DNA of 44,213 nt from Verrucomicrobiia bacterium (lineage in GTDB: Bacteria; Verrucomicrobiota; Verrucomicrobiia; Limisphaerales; UBA11358): contig JANWKE010000114.1 of the NCBI GenBank assembly GCA_025451535.1, positions 1 to 44,213 on the forward strand, read 5' to 3'. The number at the start of each line of letters is the position of its first letter. Position 1 is the first letter of the stretch. Below, one piece after another: positions 9,110-42,210 of the stretch. The notes beneath the pieces were generated by a model, which did not search any database, was not told where the DNA came from, and was given only the letters and a program-made list of their open reading frames with translations. The position numbers and the translations under genes were made by a program.

Positions 9110-12100
9110 TCAAGGCGCAAGGGACCGGTAGAACTTCGCCGGGCTGGTTGGCGCGGTGGCGTCGGTAAATTGCCAATTGCCATCGATCCCGGCGATGTTG
9201 GTCGAAAGCGGCTGCCAGACGGCCGGCGGCGAAAGGTTGGTGGTACAAAGCACCACATTGGTTGAACCGGGTTGGCTCACGAAATTGAGCGACACACTGC
9301 CGTCGGGGTTGGGAACGGTTTGATAAATGAGCGGCGAGAGGGCTACGGTCAGGTTGGCCACACTGCTGGTCACACTGCTGCCCGGACCGTTCACGACTAC
9401 TTGATAATCGCCCGCATTGGCCGCCGTCACGTTGTTCAGCGTCAAGACCGGGCCCCGGGTGTTGGTCACTTTGCGGACACGGTAGTTGGCGGTATCCGAA
9501 ATGAACAAGTTGCCGGCGGCATCCACTGTCACACCATAGGGATAATTCAAACGGGCATTGGTGGCGGCGCCGCCGTCGCCGGAATAACTTCCATGTGCCG
9601 GGTAACCCGCCCCCGAGCCCGCCACCCTTGTGATAAAGTCGTTGGTGTTGACCTGACTGATCCGGTAATTGTAGGTGTCTGCGATGAACACGTTATCCTC
9701 GGCATCCACCGCCACGCCAAAAGGACGGTCCAGACTGACGCTGGTCGCAGGTGTGCCGTCGCTGGAATCGGTTCGGTAATCCATCGCGCTGGTGGAGACA
9801 ACTGCCGGAACGGGTCCGCCAGTCCCCGCCACGGTGGTGATCATGCCATTGGTGTATATTTCGCGAATGACGCTGTTGCCAGCCTCGGCGACGAACACAT
9901 TGCCGGCGACATCCACCGCAATACCGAAGGGAGCATCCAGGTTGGCGCCGGTGGCGGGACCGCCGTCGCCGGCATACCCCGCCGTGCCGTTGCCTCCGAT
10001 GGTTGTGATTATGCCGTTGGTGTCTACCATTCGAATGCGCTGGTTGCCGGTATCGGCAATGAACAGATTGCCGGCGGCATCCAACGCCACGCCACCGGGC
10101 TGGTACAAGCTCGCATCAGTGGCGGGGCCGCCGTCTCCGGAATAACCGTAATAGTTATCGCCCACCACGGTGGTGATGATGCCATGGGTATCCACTTTTC
10201 GGACCCAGTTGTTCCCGTCATCCGCAATGAACAGGTTACCGGCGGCATCCACCGCCACGCCCGTTGGAGATTCCAAATTGGCGTTGGTGGCTGCGCCGCC
10301 GTTGCCGGCATGACCTGCCGTGCCGTTGCCGGCTATAGTGGTAATGATGCCGCCGGCGTTCACTTCGCGAATGACACAGTTATTATTGTCCGCAATAAAA
10401 AGGTTGCCAAACGTATCCTCCGCTGTGCCGAGAGGGCCATTCAAGCTGGCGCCGGTGGCGGGGCCGCCGTCACCCGAATAACCCGCCGTGCCATTGCCGG
10501 CGATCGTCGTGATGATGCCGTTGGCCAGATTCGTGTGGTTGAATTGCCATTGATAGGTGAACGGCCCGACGCCGGAAACTTCCGCGCTGAAGGTGACATT
10601 GCCGCCTGCCCACAGGGCTCGACTGGCGGGTTGCGTATTGATGGACAGGGGCGAATCAACAACCGTGAGGATGGCCAGTGAACTGGTGACACAGCCCGCC
10701 ACATTGGTTATCACCACCGCATAGCTGGCCGCATCGGCATGTTGCACAGCGCCCAAGGTGAGGGTATCGGCCGTCGAACCCGAGGCATTGCCACCGTCGG
10801 TCATGGCCAAACCATTTTTCAGCCATTGATAACCCGACGAAGCCACTCCACCGACCGCCACGGAAAAAGTTGCCGTTGTGCCCACCACATTGGCGCGGCT
10901 GGCCGGTTGGCGGGTAATCGTGGCTACAATCACGGTGGCGACGCTGCTGGTCACACTGCCGCCGGAACCGGTTACCACCACCTGGTAATCCCCCGCATTG
11001 GCCGCCGTCACGCTGTGGAGTGATAACGTGGGCAGATCGGGCGTTACTTTACGGATACGGTTGTTGTCCGTGTCCGCAATAAAAAGATTGTCGGAAGCAT
11101 CTACCGCCACACCATAAGGAAAGTTCAAACTGGCGCTGGTAGCCATCCCGCCGTCACCGTAATAACCGTTGTTGCCGTTGCCGGCCACCGTTGTAATGAT
11201 GCCGTTGGCATTGACCATGCGAATGCGTTGAAGGCCATAGTCGGCGATGAACAAGTTGCCAAGGGCGTCCACGGTTACTCGCCAGGGGTAACCCATACTG
11301 GCGTTGGTGGCGGGACCGCCGTCGCCCGAATAACCATAGGTACCGTTGCCGGCCACCGTTGTGATGATGCCGTTGGTGCTCACCTTGCGGACGCGGGTAT
11401 TAGACCAATCGGCAATGAACAAGTTACCCGAGTTGTCCACGGCCACGCCTTTGGGAGCATTCAGGTTGGCGTTGGTGGCGGGACCGCCGTCGCCGGAAAA
11501 ACCCGGCGTGCCGTTGCCGGCTACGGTCGTGATGGTGCCATTGGTGCTTACTTCCCGGATGCACCGGTTGCCGGTATCCGCGATGAACAAGTTGCCGGAG
11601 GTGTCCACGGCCACGTCGTCAGGGAAGTGCATACTGGCATTGGTGGCGGGGCCACCGTCACCGGAATAACCCAATGCGCCATTACCCGCTACTGTGGTGA
11701 TGGTGCCGTTGGTACTTACTTTGCGAACACGTTCATTGAGGTTGTCCGCAATGAACAGGTCGCCGGTGGCGTCCACCGCCACTCCATCGGGATAAGCCAG
11801 GCTTGCATTGGTGGCGGAGCCGCCGTCACCCGAATAACCGTATGTGCCGTTGCCCGCGACCGTCGTCATAATACCGTTGGTGCCCGCCATACGGACGCTT
11901 TGGTGGCCCAGATCCGCAATAAACAGGTCGCCGGAGGCATCCGCAGCCACGGCAAAGGGACTGTTCAGACTGGCGTTGGTGGTGGCGCTGCCGTCACCAC
12001 CGTTTCCTCCGCCGGCAACCGTCGTGATGATACCATTGGGCAGGTTTATTGAATCGATCTGCCATTGATAATGGAATGGTCCGTTGCCAGAAGCCCCCAC

Positions 12101-16991: not shown

Positions 16992-18206
16992 ATGAACCAG
17001 GAACTTTCAGACTTCGCGGCGCGCTGGCGCCGGGCTATTTCTTCGGAGGGACGAGTTACACGTGGCCCTGACTCAAAGAATGAGAATGGGGACTCGTGTA
17101 ACTCGCCCCTCCGAGGGTTCAATGCTCTGGCCCTCGAACTTTTTGCGCTCCAGTTCAAACACAACGCCGCCTACCGAAAAATCTGCGAGGCGCGTGAGGT
17201 GACGCCGGAGTTCATTGAACATTGGACGCAAATTCCCGCCGTGCCGACGAGTGCATTCAAGGAACTGGAACTTACCTGCCTTCCGCCGGAGGAACGTACT
17301 GCGGTTTTCCATTCCAGCGGCACCACCGCGCAGAAGCCCAGCCGCCACTTCCATTCGGTGGAGTCATTGAATGTTTACGAGACATCACTATGGCCATGGT
17401 TCCTGGCGAATGTTTGGCCAGATTTACGATTTGCGATTTACGATTTACGATTGATCTGTCTGACCCCGCCACCGGTGCAAGCGCGGCACTCTTCGCTGGT
17501 CCACATGTTAGAAACAGTGCGTAGCCGCGTTTGTGAAAGCGCGGGGCGTTCATTTTTTGGATCCGCTGCCTCCGACGGTTCCTGGACTTTGGATTTTGAC
17601 GCCGTGCTTGCCGCACTGAACTCGTCACTCGTCACCCGTCACCCGTCATTGCTGTTGGGCACGGCCTTTTCGTTTGTGCATCTGCTGGATTTTTTAGCAG
17701 CACGCGACCTCCGGTTTCAGCTTCCCGCCGGTTCGCGCGTGATGGAAACCGGCGGTTATAAGAACCGTTCCCGCGCGCTGCCGAAGGAGGAATTACACGC
17801 ACTCATCGCGGAACGACTCGGTGTTACACCTGAGAATATCATCTGCGAATACGGCATGAGCGAGTTAAGTTCGCAGGCTTACGCAGTGGCGGGTGACAAG
17901 TGGCAAGTGGCACGAGAAACCACTCCATCTTGTCACCTGTCACCTGTCACTTGTCACTTCCAATTCCCTCCCTGGGCGCGGGTACAGATCGTTTCGCCGG
18001 AGACGGGACGGGAAGTGGCGCACGGGGAATCAGGTTTGGTCCGTGTATTTGATCTGGCGAACGTTTTTTCCGTGATGGCCATTCAGACGGAGGATATGGC
18101 TGTTCGGCGTGGTGACGGATTTGAATTGATTGGCCGCGCCCAGGCCGCTGAACCACGCGGCTGTTCATTGATGATGTTGGAGGGAAGTGCTTCGTCACTT
18201 CCCTGA
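16992..18206 (+). CDS. LuxE-like acyl-protein synthetase
   Basis: 404 residues of the LuxE/acyl-AMP ligase type. Motifs are FHSSGTTAQKPSRH (AMP-binding Ser/Thr loop), VMETGGYKNRSRALP, and ICEYGMSELSSQAY, all typical of LuxE (PF04443). LuxE proteins activate a fatty acid and pass it to the LuxC reductase. The gene directly precedes a LuxC-like gene, so the two probably make a fatty aldehyde. The reading frame is loaded with repeats: a palindrome at 17043-17114 (SSEGRVTRG...), heptamer arrays at 17421-17452, 17620-17650 and 17893-17959, and its last residues (EGSASSLP) plus stop come from another palindrome (18177-18240). These fall outside the motifs and keep frame, so the enzyme may remain active. 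Confidence 0.82.
   Translation: MNQELSDFAARWRRAISSEGRVTRGPDSKNENGDSCNSPLRGFNALALELFALQFKHNAAYRKICEAREVTPEFIEHWTQIPAVPTSAFKELELTCLPPEERTAVFHSSGTTAQKPSRHFHSVESLNVYETSLWPWFLANVWPDLRFAIYDLRLICLTPPPVQARHSSLVHMLETVRSRVCESAGRSFFGSAASDGSWTLDFDAVLAALNSSLVTRHPSLLLGTAFSFVHLLDFLAARDLRFQLPAGSRVMETGGYKNRSRALPKEELHALIAERLGVTPENIICEYGMSELSSQAYAVAGDKWQVARETTPSCHLSPVTCHFQFPPWARVQIVSPETGREVAHGESGLVRVFDLANVFSVMAIQTEDMAVRRGDGFELIGRAQAAEPRGCSLMMLEGSASSLP
17043..17114. repeat. Palindromic element A1, inside luxE-like gene
   Basis: Twenty-base arms (17043-17062 and 17095-17114) are inverted copies with one mismatch, beginning TCGGAGGGACGAGTTACACG. Between them lies the core CCCTGACTCAAAGAATGAG. It is translated in frame. 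Confidence 0.85.
17421..17452. repeat. 7-bp tandem array D2, inside luxE-like gene
   Basis: GATTTAC, GATTTGC, GATTTAC, GATTTAC, GATT. It is translated as DLRFAIYDLRL, showing the 7-residue period that a 7-base repeat must give. Confidence 0.8.
17620..17650. repeat. 7-bp tandem array D3, inside luxE-like gene
   Basis: ACTCGTC, ACTCGTC, ACCCGTC, ACCCGTC, ATT. It is translated in frame as part of NSSLVTRHPSLL. Confidence 0.8.
17893..17959. repeat. Paired inverted 7-bp arrays D4, inside luxE-like gene
   Basis: Left array GTGACAA, GTGGCAA, GTGGCAC (17893-17913). Right array CTTGTCA, CCTGTCA, CCTGTCA, CTTGTCA (17929-17956). The right array is the reverse complement of the left unit type, so the two can fold into a hairpin. 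It is translated in frame. Confidence 0.82.
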
Positions 18207-22041: not shown

Positions 22042-22070
22042 CCGCCTGAAAAATTCATTTGATCGCAAAA

Positions 22071-22172
22071 GGCGAGGTAACGAGTCTCAAAATAAAACCG
22101 GAAATCGGAAATGAATTGGAGACTCCTTCCGCCTTCGCCCGGCTACGGCGAGACAAGCACGTCGTCTCCTGC
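22071..22172 (-). repeat. Palindromic element I4 after mscS, related to 39964-40021
   Basis: CGAGGTAACGAGTCTCAA at 22073-22090 matches, with one mismatch, the reverse complement of the stretch ending 40013, and GTCGTCTCCTGC at 22161-22172 matches the other arm of the 39964 element. GGCGAGG.. and ..CCTTCGCC arms (22071-22139) form an inverted repeat. It fills the gap to the cysteine desulfurase gene. Confidence 0.7.
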
Positions 22173-22180
22173 ATAACCTC

Positions 22181-23329
22181 TCACGCTTCGGCATGCGCCC
22201 TGGTGTGGCTCATCTCTTCGTGGATTTTACCCAAGGCATCGGCCAGCGCGGCCCAGTCCGCCTCGGTGGTTTCCCAGCCGCTGCTGAACCGCAGCACGCG
22301 ATGCGCGTCTGCCGCCTTGAAATGCATTGCGGCGAGAACGTGCGACGGTTCCTCCTTGCCGGTCGTGCAGGCGGAGCCGGTGGAAACGGCAATACCCGCC
22401 TGGTCGAGCCGGGAAACCCAGCGGAGCTGGCTGCCTTCCGGGACCAGCGCCGAAACGGTGTTCCACAATCGCGGCGAACCTGCGCCGACGAGCACCGCGC
22501 CGGGCAGTTTGTGCAATAGTTGCCGTTCAAAATTCTCGCGCCACACGCCGCGCAGAATGTGCTCGTTGCGCGCAAGCTGTTTCTCGCGTGCCTCCAGTCC
22601 GGCGAGCATGGAAACGATGATCGGGACGTTTTCCGTCCCCGCACGCTGGCCGCGTTCCTGTTTGCCGCCGACAATCAATGGTGTGACATGGCCACGCCCG
22701 GGAACTTTCAGAAAGCCGACGCCGCGTGGTCCGCCGAATTTGTGCGCCGCCCCGCTGAGAAAATTGCATTCGCCCAGCCCCTTCGCGGGCATTTTGCCGA
22801 TCCATTGTACAGCGTCGCAGAAAAACGGCACCTCGTACTGCTGACAAATGGCCAGGATTTCGCGCCACGGCTGAATCACGCCGGTTTCATTATTTGCCGC
22901 CATCACGGCCACCAGTCCCGGTCGGATATCGGCCATTTCGACCGTCAACCAGTCCAGATCAATCACCCCGGCGTGCGTGACGGGAATGAATTTTGTCCGG
23001 TGGTGGAAGTAAGCCGAGGACGACTCCATGATGCACGGGTGTTCAATCGGAGAAATCCAGATTTGAGCCTTTGGATCCAGCACCTGCGCAAAATGGTGCA
23101 AGGCCATGTTATTGGCCTCGGTCGCCCCGCTGGTCCAGATGATTTCGGCCGGGCGACAGCCGAGGAACGCGGCGAGTTTTTCGCGCGCCTCGGTCATGGC
23201 CTTGTTGGCCGCCGCGCCAAACTGGTGCGGGCTCGACGGATTGCCGGCGATGTGCTCAGTGGCATTCAGCCAGGCTTCGCGCGCCTCGCGCATGACCGGC
23301 GCGGTGGCATTATGGTCGAAATAAATCAT
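22181..23329 (-). CDS. NifS/IscS-family cysteine desulfurase
   Basis: 382 residues of a PLP-dependent class V aminotransferase fold that takes sulfur from cysteine for Fe-S clusters or tRNA thiolation. It begins MIYFDHNATAPV, typical of NifS/IscS. The PLP lysine lies in LSGAAHKFGGPRGVGFL and the active-site cysteine in AVSTGSACTTGKEEPSHVL, whose loop length fits the IscS/NifS type rather than SufS. Other motifs: TSGATEANNMALH, NNETGVIQPW, RAGTENVP. The start overlaps the mutY stop by three bases (ATGA at 23329-23326), so it is coupled to mutY, which itself needs a 4Fe-4S cluster. No iscU is next to it, so iscS is not assigned. Confidence 0.9.
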   Translation of the reverse strand: MIYFDHNATAPVMREAREAWLNATEHIAGNPSSPHQFGAAANKAMTEAREKLAAFLGCRPAEIIWTSGATEANNMALHHFAQVLDPKAQIWISPIEHPCIMESSSAYFHHRTKFIPVTHAGVIDLDWLTVEMADIRPGLVAVMAANNETGVIQPWREILAICQQYEVPFFCDAVQWIGKMPAKGLGECNFLSGAAHKFGGPRGVGFLKVPGRGHVTPLIVGGKQERGQRAGTENVPIIVSMLAGLEAREKQLARNEHILRGVWRENFERQLLHKLPGAVLVGAGSPRLWNTVSALVPEGSQLRWVSRLDQAGIAVSTGSACTTGKEEPSHVLAAMHFKAADAHRVLRFSSGWETTEADWAALADALGKIHEEMSHTRAHAEA

Positions 23330-24663
23330 CGGTCGGATAAGATACAATTGAACGCCGCGCTGGCCAGTTTTTTGTGGGCTGAGCTGAAAGCCAGTTCTCG
23401 CATTTGCGCCGGTGTCTTCCAGACACCAGTTTCGGAGGGGCGAGTTCCGCTAGCCACCAACTTCATCTGTTTTGAATGGGGGCTCGTATAACTCGTCTTT
23501 CCGAGGTTCATGCGAAACGCTTCCAGCGTAATGCGATAGCGCGTGATAGAATGTTTTACGGTGCAAAGGGGTGCCAGTTTCGCCGGTGTGAAACCGAGAG
23601 CTTGCGTCGCAGCGTTCGCGACTAATTCGGAGCGCGGGTCTCCTGACCCGCAGCGCGTTCGCATGGCATTCGTCGCTGGAATTTCACCGTTGCCAGTCCG
23701 CAAGCGGGTGGGCTGCGGCTCGGAGAGCCGCGCTCCAATTTCAACATTCGGGAATTCCCACAAATGCGCATTCACGACCCCGGCCGGCCGCTGCCGAATC
23801 AGGAAATGCCCATTCCGCTCGACGACGAAAGCGACAAAATGGCGGGCTGTGGCGGCTTCGCGTAGGCCAAGGTTGGGCAGCTCATTCACGCGATGTCCCT
23901 GGAAGGCGATGCAGGGTTTTTTGACCGGGCAAAGCCCGCATTGCGGGTTTCGTGGTGTGCAAACCAGAGCACCGAGTTCCATCAGGGATTGGTTTAATGC
24001 GGAGCAATTTCCGGTTATGGTAACAGCCGACGTAAGGAGGCTCTGACTGGTTCCAATTTCGGAATGAGCCTCCTGACGTCGGCTGCTACGGGTACTATGA
24101 TGCTTCGCCGCAGTTGTCACCAGTTCTTCAGCCAGCTTCCAAAGCCGCGCGTTCGTTTCCTTCTCCTTCGGATTTTGTGAAATGCCAAAAATGCGTGTCA
24201 GCACGCGGATAACATTGCCGTCCAGAATCGGCGTTGGCTGGTTGAAGGCGATGCTGCAAATCGCGCCGGCGGTGTAACGACCGATGCCTGGCAACGCAAG
24301 GACGTCATCAAAGTTTTCCGGGAATTTCCCTTCGTGTTTTTCCACAGTCTGCCGCGCAGCCTTTTGCAGGTTCCGGGCGCGGCTGTAGTAGCCGAGCCCT
24401 TCCCAAAGCTTGTGGATTTTGTCCGGGCTGGCCTTGGCCGCGGCCTTGATGGTTGGCAGTTCGCGCAGCCAGCGTTCCCAATAGGGAATCACCGTTTTGA
24501 CCTGGGTCTGCTGGAGCATGATTTCCGAGACCCAGACGGGGTAGGGATCGCGGGTGCGGCGCCAGGGCAGATCGCGGGCGTGGGCGGCAAACCAATTAAG
24601 CAAAGCCGGCACAAGTTTCCCCAATTTTGAATTTTGAATTTTGAATTTTGAGTTGGAACTCAT
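23326..24663 (-). CDS. mutY: MutY, A/G-specific adenine glycosylase with repeat insertions
   Basis: 445 residues from ATG 24663, about 90 longer than usual. MutY removes adenine mispaired with 8-oxoguanine. Seen are LPWRRTRDPYPVWVSEIMLQ, the helix-hairpin-helix LPGIGRYTAGAI with catalytic Asp in PILDGNVIRVL, the 4Fe-4S ligands CTPRNPQCGLCPVKKPC (C-x6-C-x2-C-x5-C), and a C-terminal NUDIX-like 8-oxoG domain (GHFLIRQRPAGVVNAHLWEFPN). The extra length comes from palindromes read in frame: about residues 192-215 (24020-24089), 309-345 (23626-23739) and 387-411 (23432-23504). A 7-bp array (24623-24650) encodes the NSKFKIQNSK start region. All insertions lie between, not within, the motifs. Confidence 0.92.
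   Translation of the reverse strand: MSSNSKFKIQNSKLGKLVPALLNWFAAHARDLPWRRTRDPYPVWVSEIMLQQTQVKTVIPYWERWLRELPTIKAAAKASPDKIHKLWEGLGYYSRARNLQKAARQTVEKHEGKFPENFDDVLALPGIGRYTAGAICSIAFNQPTPILDGNVIRVLTRIFGISQNPKEKETNARLWKLAEELVTTAAKHHSTRSSRRQEAHSEIGTSQSLLTSAVTITGNCSALNQSLMELGALVCTPRNPQCGLCPVKKPCIAFQGHRVNELPNLGLREAATARHFVAFVVERNGHFLIRQRPAGVVNAHLWEFPNVEIGARLSEPQPTRLRTGNGEIPATNAMRTRCGSGDPRSELVANAATQALGFTPAKLAPLCTVKHSITRYRITLEAFRMNLGKTSYTSPHSKQMKLVASGTRPSETGVWKTPAQMRELAFSSAHKKLASAAFNCILSDR
23432..23504. repeat. Palindromic element A2, inside mutY
   Basis: TCGGAGGGGCGAGTT (23432-23446) pairs with AACTCGTCTTTCCGA (23490-23504) with a few G:T or mismatched positions. It belongs to the same arm type as the element in the luxE-like gene (17043) and the one before pgm (36325). 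It is translated in frame. Confidence 0.8.
23626..23739. repeat. Two-hairpin palindromic element inside mutY
   Basis: Outer arms GGAGCGCGG (23629-23637) and CCGCGCTCC (23728-23736) enclose GCGGGTC/GACCCGC (23634-23651) and GCGGCTC/GAGCCGC (23715-23731). It is translated in frame as a spacer in the C-terminal domain. Confidence 0.8.
24020..24089. repeat. Palindromic element B1, inside mutY
   Basis: 24-base arms (24020-24043, GTAACAGCCGACGT..., and 24066-24089, ...CGTCGGCTGCTAC) match at 22 positions. The core between them is CTGACTGG..GGAATGAG. It is translated as HSTRSSRRQEAHSEIGTS and onward, between the catalytic and Fe-S regions of MutY. Confidence 0.85.
24623..24650. repeat. 7-bp tandem array D6 at the mutY start
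   Basis: Four perfect copies of AATTTTG. On the mutY strand they encode part of SKFKIQNSK just after the ATG at 24663. Confidence 0.85.
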
Positions 24664-24687
24664 TTTGCGCGCCCGAATTATCGCCAC

Positions 24688-24747
24688 AAAAAGGCGCGAA
24701 AGCCGCAAAAAACTTTGTGTCCTTTGCGTTCTTTGCGGTTATCCTTT
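24688..24747. repeat. Repeat-like imperfect inverted sequence before rnhC
   Basis: AAAAGGCGCGAAAGCCGCAA (24690-24709) is complementary in part to TTTGCGTTCTTTGCGGTTAT (24723-24742). It lies in the divergent gap between mutY and rnhC and extends the rnhC frame without resembling RNase HIII. Confidence 0.6.
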
Positions 24748-24752
24748 TATCT

Positions 24753-25715
24753 GTGCAACCGCTGACATCTTATACGTGCAAGCTGACCGACGAGCAGGCG
24801 TCGGCGCTCGATGCCGCTTTGCGCGCGCGTAATTGGAAATTTCGCGAAGTACCTTATGCGCGTTTTGCGTTCGAGTCCGACAAGGCCAACATCGTCTTTT
24901 ACGAGAGCGGCAAGCTGGTGGTGCAAGGAAAGGGCACGCAGGAAATCATTGAGTTCCTGCTGGAACCGGAAATACTGAAACAGGCGCGTCTCGGCTACGA
25001 AACCGTGCTGAATCCCGAGTTACTTCTGCCGCGCATTGGTGTGGACGAAAGCGGCAAGGGCGATTTCTTCGGGCCGTTATCCATTGCCGGGGTTTACATC
25101 AATGAAAGCGTCATCCAGGCGTGGCAGGGCGCCGGTATCCGCGATTCCAAGAACATTTCCAGCGACAAAAAAATCTCCGAGTTGGCGGAAAAAATCCGCA
25201 AAACGTCCGGGTGCGTCGTGAACACGGTAGTGATTGGCAACGAGGCTTACAACCGGTTGTACGCAAAAATGAAAAGCGTGAACGCGATCCTGGCGTGGGG
25301 TCACGCGCGGGTGATTGAAAATCTGATGGGCCAGCGGCACCAGATGAATCCCGCACCGGTCAAGGCCATTAGCGACCAGTTCGCGTCGAAAAAGGAAGTG
25401 GTAGCCAAGGCGCTAATGGCGCTGGGCCGGGAGATTGAATTGGTTCAACGGCACAAGGCAGAAGAGGATTTGGCGGTGGCGGCGGCTTCGATTCTGGCGC
25501 GGGACGAGTTTGTGAAAGGGCTGGCGAAGCTGGAGAAACAATTCAACGTGGAGCTGCCGAAAGGCGCTTCCAGCGCAGTGGACGAAGCGGCGAAGAAATT
25601 TGTGACGGAGCAGGGCGCGGAGAATTTGCCAAAAATTGCCAAGGTCCATTTCCGCACGGCCTTGCGCGCGCAAGGCCTGCCCGAACCGCCGAAAACTGAA
25701 TGGCGCAAGCATTAA
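24753..25715 (+). CDS. rnhC: Ribonuclease HIII
   Basis: 320 residues from a GTG at 24753. RNase HIII cleaves RNA in RNA/DNA hybrids. The N-terminal TBP-like substrate-binding domain is present (SYTCKLTDEQASALDAALRA, FRKFVPYARF-like strand, IVFYESGKLVVQGKG), which separates it from RNase HII. The catalytic domain shows GVDESGKGDFFGPLSIAGVY (first Asp and Glu), GIRDSKNIS (Asp) and AEEDLAVAAASILARDEF. The frame is open upstream to 24648, but that stretch is a repeat (24688-24747, alternating GCGAAAGCCGC and TTTGCGGTT) and would add a spurious hydrophobic leader, so the GTG is preferred. It is divergent from mutY. Confidence 0.88.
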   Translation: MQPLTSYTCKLTDEQASALDAALRARNWKFREVPYARFAFESDKANIVFYESGKLVVQGKGTQEIIEFLLEPEILKQARLGYETVLNPELLLPRIGVDESGKGDFFGPLSIAGVYINESVIQAWQGAGIRDSKNISSDKKISELAEKIRKTSGCVVNTVVIGNEAYNRLYAKMKSVNAILAWGHARVIENLMGQRHQMNPAPVKAISDQFASKKEVVAKALMALGREIELVQRHKAEEDLAVAAASILARDEFVKGLAKLEKQFNVELPKGASSAVDEAAKKFVTEQGAENLPKIAKVHFRTALRAQGLPEPPKTEWRKH

Positions 25716-36321: not shown

Positions 36322-36324
36322 TTT

Positions 36325-36402
36325 CCGGAGGGGCGAGCTCTGCGAGTCCCTGAAATCTTTCCGGCGAATAGAATAATGGGACTCGTGAAACTCGTCCCTC
36401 CG
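36325..36402. repeat. Palindromic element A3 between nuoA and the phosphohexomutase gene
   Basis: CGGAGGGGCGAG (36326-36337) pairs with CTCGTCCCTCCG (36391-36402) at 11 of 12 positions. The inner part has GAGTCCCTGAAATC and ATGGGACTCG. It lies four bases after the nuoA stop. Confidence 0.82.
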
Positions 36403-36416
36403 ATTTAGCGACTCAC

Positions 36417-39963: not shown

Positions 39964-40021
39964 GTAGGAGACGACGCGAGGAGTCTCTGACTGAATTGAG
40001 TCTCGTTACCTCGACTCCTAC
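39964..40021. repeat. Palindromic element I3, related to 22071-22172
   Basis: GTAGGAG at the left and CTCCTAC at the right, with the core GTCTCTGACTGAATTGAGTC and an inner GAGTCTC/GAGTCTC pair. CTCGTTACCTCG is shared with the copy at 22073 (reverse strand). Confidence 0.8.
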
Positions 40022-42120: not shown

Positions 42121-42140
42121 ATCAAGATTGTATTTTTATT

Positions 42141-42210
42141 TCGGAGGGCGAAGCTCTGCGACGCCCTGATAACTTCAAATTGTGGGGCTCAAGGAACTCG
42201 CCCTTCCGGG
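42141..42210. repeat. Palindromic element A4 between mbfA-like and cls-like genes
   Basis: TCGGAGGGCGAAG at the left and CTCGCCCTTCCGGG at the right, with the core GCCCTGATAAC and TGTGGGGCTC. Arm type and core match the elements at 17043 and 36325. Confidence 0.75.

Follow-up and report, generated by a model that had tools for sequence, protein, structure and literature searches.

The mutY gene of this Verrucomicrobiia bacterium very probably carries three short mobile palindromes, non-autonomous and each of a different dispersed family, together with a heptamer array, all of them translated and tolerated in linkers of the protein. The gene lies on the minus strand at 23326..24708 of the window, by which we mean the whole stretch of 44,213 nucleotides that was analysed. 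It was identified as an A/G-specific adenine glycosylase gene by TIGR01084 (314 bits, above the cut-off) and by its HhH-GPD, NUDIX_4 and HHH domains. Its open reading frame has 460 amino acids counted from a TTG start, the ATG at 24663, which gives 445 amino acids, being the likelier start. The frame is uninterrupted across all three palindromes and the array.

Three palindromes and a heptamer array in mutY

The first palindrome (family A; 24020..24089, residues 207-230) was recognised as an inverted repeat, by its family model and by its fold. It is a head-to-head dimer of GTAG-tagged REP units, that is, a REPIN, and is surrounded by a variable segment that we call s1 (24004-24117, residues 198-235). 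Its 24-nt arms are 92% complementary, its ends read GTAG on one side and GTAA on the other, and it folds with a z of -10.8, equalled by none of 200 shuffles. It is also the top family A copy of the genome (E 2.4e-18), being itself one of the 10 sequences used to build the model. The second palindrome (family B; 23624..23741, residues 323-362), of the form GGAGCGCGG ... CCGCGCTCC, was detected as an inverted repeat with 20-nt arms, 85% complementary, and by a fold with z -5.4, which again no shuffle out of 200 equalled. The third (family C; 23431..23505, residues 402-426), CGGAGGGACGAG ... CTCGTCCCTCCG, is degenerate. It did not pass the simple inverted-repeat test (p 0.446), and was recognised by its family model (E 6.8e-12, itself one of 18 model sequences) and by its fold (z -3.6, equalled by 1 of 200 shuffles). 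This copy has the appearance of an old insertion in decay. Each palindrome belongs to a dispersed family unrelated to the other two, and the three are at differing stages of decay. A tandem-repeat scan located the heptamer array, AATTTTG in 4.1 copies, at 24623..24651, directly after the likely ATG, where it encodes the N-terminal peptide NSKFKIQNSKL. The preliminary description, which had placed three in-frame palindromes and an array in this gene, was therefore confirmed on both counts, with A and B as robust folds and C as a real but degenerate copy.

The same description had put the excess length of MutY at about 90 residues. The protein is indeed longer, the excess being about 70-80 residues over insert-free members of the genus. 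From the LPWR motif to the C-terminus it has 414 residues, against 334-344 in the insert-free G020, G034, G008 and G033; the other proteins with no detectable insert have 345 (G018, with a visible remnant) and 358 (G011). As had been proposed, the inserts lie between functional motifs. E62, Y145 and D163, which correspond to the catalytic residues of MutY, are present, and so are all four cluster cysteines (250, 257, 260 and 266), the HhH-GPD domain and the NUDIX-like C-terminal domain. An AlphaFold2 model made with 48 sequences has a mean pLDDT of 85.5, with values of at least 90 for 314 of 460 residues, and predicts the full fold. It matches the MutY-DNA complexes of B. stearothermophilus with Z 36-38, 342-349 residues aligned and an rmsd of 2.2-2.8 A. 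As the model covers nearly the whole length of that enzyme, the inserts would be additions to an otherwise complete protein. Their block-mean pLDDT is only 45-73. As to whether the peptides may be surface loops, the model predicts low-confidence segments outside the conserved fold. Residues 386-391, HSITRY (window 23536-23553), belong to an order-wide H-x-I-T-R-Y motif in which each of these residues is nearly invariant (48 rows), at the place of the FSH motif, used for 8-oxoG recognition, in other MutY proteins.

Families A, B and C are dispersed in the genome

BLAST within the same genome returned numerous partial copies of A and C and few of B. For covariance models we used 10 copies of A and 18 of C, the mutY copies included in both (in the A model, R1, two of the 10 sequences, from L065 and L080, contain one doubled spacer base). 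After hand-merging of matches on both strands, they placed family A at 51 or more sites of the genome and family C at 55 or more. Family B is present in a handful of copies. Among the matches listed, A occurs in 35 of 35 genomes of the genus and C in 21 of 35, this one counted. In G016, which is 73% complete, the sole family C place among the matches listed lies within mutY (L196, G016:C239:1333-1407).

In family A two 24-nt units with a GTAG end are joined head to head as a REPIN-like dimer. At its left end G1, T2 and A3 are invariant in 10 aligned copies and base 4 is G in eight of them. Folded singly as stem-loops, one variant of the unit gives a good structure (z -4.35); the mutY unit and a second variant give z values of -0.25 and -0.32. 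Family C is a pair of arms ending in CGGAGGG, and family B measures about 110-115 bp with ends as in mutY; neither has a GTAG tag. The window holds a further family A copy at 39964..40021 (E 2.9e-15), a weak A match at 22065..22146 (E 1.1e-4) and further family C copies at 17042..17115 (E 2.1e-14), 36324..36404 (E 7.0e-14) and 42140..42210 (E 8.8e-10).

The genome encodes three strong Y1-type transposases (Y1_Tnp; L144, L145 and L146). In this 188-contig assembly none of the three genes is directly flanked by GTAG units, and the sole units within 1.5 kb of Y1_Tnp genes belong to a gene situated some 1 kb upstream from one of the three. The sequences upstream of L144 and L145 are alike and contain other short palindromes.

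The heptamer array of mutY has company as well. Period 7 predominates in the window, accounting for 10 of 24 tandem-repeat rows with differing units (arrays at 9168, 16065, 17421, 17623, 17885, 17929, 19650, 24623, 33789 and 36528), and for 41 of 86 rows, with 25 different units, in 335 kb of the genome, a sample drawn around repeats. Mononucleotide-shuffled sequence gave zero period-7 arrays. Cyanobacteria have heptanucleotide short tandem repeats (STRR) with many different units; likened by description, the present arrays share the period and the variety of units, and are found here also within mutY linkers. The window also contains a 168-bp tandem repeat of 5.1 copies (11148-11998).

In-frame copies in other genes

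Counting the places listed, 39 of 106 A and C copies (13 of 51 A, 26 of 55 C) are in frame within ORFs with coding-like flanks. Thirty-eight of them (13 A, 25 C) were found by script and the mutY C copy was added by hand, its 34-residue downstream flank having scored too low. We required at least 30 amino acids on each side and a hexamer score of 0.1, and a score of 0.2 in the frame test below, thresholds of our own choice. The phenomenon is hence genome-wide and not peculiar to mutY, where three inserts in a single repair gene had at first seemed striking. The analogy with the Rickettsia palindromic elements (RPE) drawn at that stage is supported, since palindromes are carried in frame by protein genes in a member of the Verrucomicrobiota. 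The Rickettsia genome is smaller than the 4.4 Mb of the present one, so the density of in-gene copies is lower here.

A frame test scored each flank separately. Both 150-nt flanks were coding on the same strand in 36 copies, and 33 of these were in frame and open, where chance would give one third. Of the exceptions, two were in frame with a stop and one was out of frame with a stop; all three may lie between neighbouring genes. The test covered 36 of the 106 copies, the others having flanks not both coding (58) or coding on different strands (10), or lying near a contig end (2). The mutY A copy was classed automatically as coding on different strands and is hence outside the 36. The training set of the coding model, used here and in the ORF search, consisted of long ORFs at these very loci, including some with elements inside, which makes the approach mildly circular. 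Selection would purge insertions that break the frame, which would leave in-gene copies nearly all in frame and open.

The frame use of in-gene elements follows stop codons. Family A uses only two frames (7 and 6 of 13), the frame that turns GTAG into TAG being used by none of the 13, and family C uses all three (5, 9 and 11 of 25). Better preservation of in-gene than of other copies was also considered as a signal and rejected, the difference being not significant for A (p 0.25) or C (p 0.065).

Pfam was run on 37 of the in-gene proteins, MutY excluded. After sorting by hand, a single domain spans the element in 16, among them an AcrB-like transporter, a RecN-like protein, QueG, a RuBisCO-like and an AIR-synthase-like protein, a class-I tRNA synthetase (Ile/Leu/Met/Val type), KsgA, ArgRS and aminotransferases. 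In two more, the element seems to lie between two parts of one domain, the output giving no position for the second part. Different domains lie on either side in 11 (LigA, DnaE, TilS, PrmC, HypF, a helicase and others), and Pfam support on both sides of the element is absent in 8.

MutY loops across related genomes

Out of 59 genomes, 50 contributed a MutY locus, 31 of them belonging to the genus and 19 to other members of the order. The remaining genomes gave good matches that were left unfetched (G048, G051), fragments (G028, G029), weak distant matches only (G004, G015, G039, G050) or zero matches (G035). The core is conserved throughout, and length differences fall mainly at four sites behind the N-terminus. 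Site s0 follows the helix that precedes KFPxxFD and has the usual insert-free length of 4 residues in our MutY. Site s1, between LAEELV and CSxLNQSLMELG, has 38 residues against a usual insert-free 6-14; site s2, behind LWEFPNVE, 65 against about 33; and site s3, in the NUDIX-like domain before W-K-T-P, 30 against about 13. The comparison with related MutY proteins that had been called for thus returned insert-free homologues that lack the extra residues. Repeat-free homologues with the same extra residues conserved were not found: s1 linkers of 17-24 residues with no palindrome or period-7 signal do occur (for example in G011, G040 and G054, and in several species outside the genus), and they are unconserved in sequence.

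A palindrome or a period-7 array occupies at least one of the four sites in 25 of the 31 species of the genus (a palindrome in 18), at a shuffle p of 0.01 or less, uncorrected over many tests. The members with no signal are G018, with its remnant, G011, G034, G020, G008 and G033. Outside the genus a signal was detected in three of 19 members of the order (G045, G052 and G037).

The repeats differ in kind, as classified by eye. Site s1 holds GTAG dimers in G000, G010, G025 and G045, GGTGGGGCGAG palindromes in G031, G024, G005, G002 and G022, GCGAAG palindromes in G001, G003, G007 and G023, GCAAAG palindromes in G026 and G006, and various heptamers elsewhere. In G017 (L016) pieces of three repeats form a mosaic at this site: a GCGAAG arm, a GGAAAGC array and the right arm of a GTAG element. 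This variety and the mosaic, read from alignments, point to serial insertion into one and the same loop. At site s2 of G030 (L013), a GTAG element in mutY is, by eye, seemingly broken by a small second hairpin in one arm.

Placed on the MutY tree, C at s3 requires at least 5 changes and the repeat kind at s1 at least 19. Clade tests gave p-AU values of 0.051 for GTAG at s1 (G000, G010, G025), 0.068 for C at s3 and 0.021 for GGTG at s1; these tests are weak, as the groups were named post hoc from the tree and resolution is poor (8 of 44 inner branches starred). The tree omits L054 and L055, in which the N-terminal part is absent, and L058 (G058), in which three of the four sites are unreadable.

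Two further genes were compared. The cysteine desulfurase gene adjoining mutY aligns in a single stretch in 33 of 35 genomes of the genus, this one counted, with at least 66% identity; G004 and G015 have only a distant paralogue. LigA, which is not a random sample because it was picked for its insert in G000, has a match in 34 genomes and was readable in 28 of 30 fetched loci. Its linker before the zinc finger has 46-73 residues in 13 of the 28 readable rows and 20-26 in the other 15, with C-type peptides in G000, G022 and G005 and other sequences elsewhere. Judging from these alignments, the LigA linker seems to resemble MutY in its uptake of repeats, whereas the cysteine desulfurase does not. 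Insertions appear to follow tolerant linkers, mutY being one target among several. A second LigA site (L309-L338, matching G000 residues 198-220) carries repeat-like inserts in several species, such as TGFQPV...DRRDACP.

Excess identity of the s1 element between species

The s1 GTAG element sits at the same position in G000, G010 and G025, with identical orientation and length. Between any two of these species its arms are equal at 16 of 16 third codon positions, while the mutY core shares 70-76% of bases and 51-60% of third positions; the excess is significant (P 2e-5 to 3e-4). In the adjoining linker, 3, 4 and 11 of 15 third positions are equal. This excess of arm identity is not accounted for by neutral tolerance. 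No comparable excess was seen for the C element at s3.

The spacers of the element are 73-82% equal ungapped, whereas 210 control comparisons of other copies at fixed positions averaged 29% and peaked at 59%. Once gaps were permitted and the comparison was extended to copies from other species, 154 other spacers came up to 0.77-0.78 at best, close to the 0.73-0.82 of mutY, so the spacers favour common descent of the element in a way that is suggestive only. Exact copies of the consensus arm exist outside mutY in three fetched loci (L157, L164 and L168). Recent insertion of a conserved family at a fixed place would therefore explain the arms as well as hairpin selection or homogenisation would. 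Only 2 of 100 arms in the genome of this bacterium reach 92% identity to the mutY arm, which counts against homogenisation by its own copies.

It is tempting to propose that the MutY and LigA linkers are serial landing pads for unrelated mobile palindromes, with GTAG copies held at the DNA level by hairpin selection or by repeated insertion at one site, an idea that we consider rather improbable. If true, either a mobile palindrome has been domesticated within coding sequence or a transposition target is fixed to one codon of a repair gene, and each would be new.

Discussion

We propose that the palindromes and the array are transcribed and translated as part of MutY, that they would form disordered loops in linkers tolerant of length change, and that the same linkers of MutY and LigA would repeatedly have taken up different repeats in related species. 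The palindromes would have reached mutY by mobility and may be neutral there.

Ordinary indels in MutY linkers, with the repeats as incidental low-complexity sequence, are a very unlikely source of the extra residues. The sites are variable loops in the family, and s1 linkers of 17-24 residues occur in several species with no repeat signal, but the extra DNA comes from families that recur at some 50 other places of the genome, the A element folds at a z of -10.8, and other palindromes occupy the same sites in different species. Some hairpins in coding sequences are skipped by ribosomes, as in the mitochondrial byp elements and T4 gene 60. Such bypass, or removal of the hairpins by splicing at the RNA level, seems just as improbable in mutY, even though strong hairpins are predicted in the sense strand of the mRNA. 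Elements that are skipped need neither frame nor open codons, and the 33 of 36 copies found in frame and open lack this indifference to frame and stops. In addition, an Rfam search of window positions 23000-25000 gave zero matches at E up to 1. The insertions could instead damage MutY and turn the lineage into a mutator, as has been speculated for REP-tagged repair genes in the text of Di Nocera and others (PMC3733652). We give this scarcely more credit. The targets do include repair and replication genes (mutY, ligA, a recN-like gene, dnaE and an addB-like nuclease gene; a listing, not an enrichment), but they also include aminoacyl-tRNA synthetases, KsgA, PrmC, IspG and others, while the catalytic and cluster residues of MutY are intact and its whole fold is predicted to be so.

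Translated and tolerated mobile palindromes have precedents. The account of PMC3733652 reports GTAG and CGTC REPs within genes, chiefly in Opitutus terrae (Verrucomicrobia) and Rickettsia conorii, with many intragenic REPs in repair genes and mutators guessed at. In O. terrae two uvrA genes have two insertions each and a DNA ligase gene is also hit; the majority of REPs are intergenic, and RPE ends are CGTC. The main text of the paper does not mention mutY. Family A fits these GTAG-REPs better than it fits RPE, the intragenic elements of O. terrae being the closest parallel. It shares with GTAG-REPs and REPINs the GTAG end, the head-to-head dimers, the tens of copies and the presence within replication and repair genes. 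Our case differs in that families B and C have no GTAG, that 13 of the 51 listed copies of A and 26 of the 55 of C are in frame in genes, and that a directly flanking RAYT was not found.

According to the passages of a 2024 review on these elements (PMC10969869), R. conorii has 44 RPE integrations, almost half of RPEs lie in ORFs, and the Rickettsia elements are an unusual extreme, a similar process elsewhere being conceivable. Like our elements, RPE come in several palindromic families and sit in frame within unrelated genes; they belong to another phylum, and here different families sit in orthologous linkers of different species, a comparison of arrangement and not of RPE sequences. Like MITEs, the present palindromes are short, non-autonomous by size and dispersed, with inverted arms. 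Unlike MITEs, they gave no parent transposon, and target-site duplication was not established in flanks read by eye. Compared with the known systems, this one has more repeat kinds and shows turnover at orthologous sites, and two families by themselves supply 39 in-gene copies. A literature search with little coverage of subscription journals turned up no report of repeats in the mutY of Verrucomicrobia.

Rickettsia is the best-documented case of in-frame mobile palindromes that supply new protein segments. Here they are met in a genus of Verrucomicrobiota with at least 35 searchable genomes, in which orthologous loops hold different repeats by species. Comparison across the genus now makes it testable whether such elements represent junk, hairpins subject to regulation or raw material for proteins, and the finding also bears on annotation and on how MutY and LigA serve as markers.
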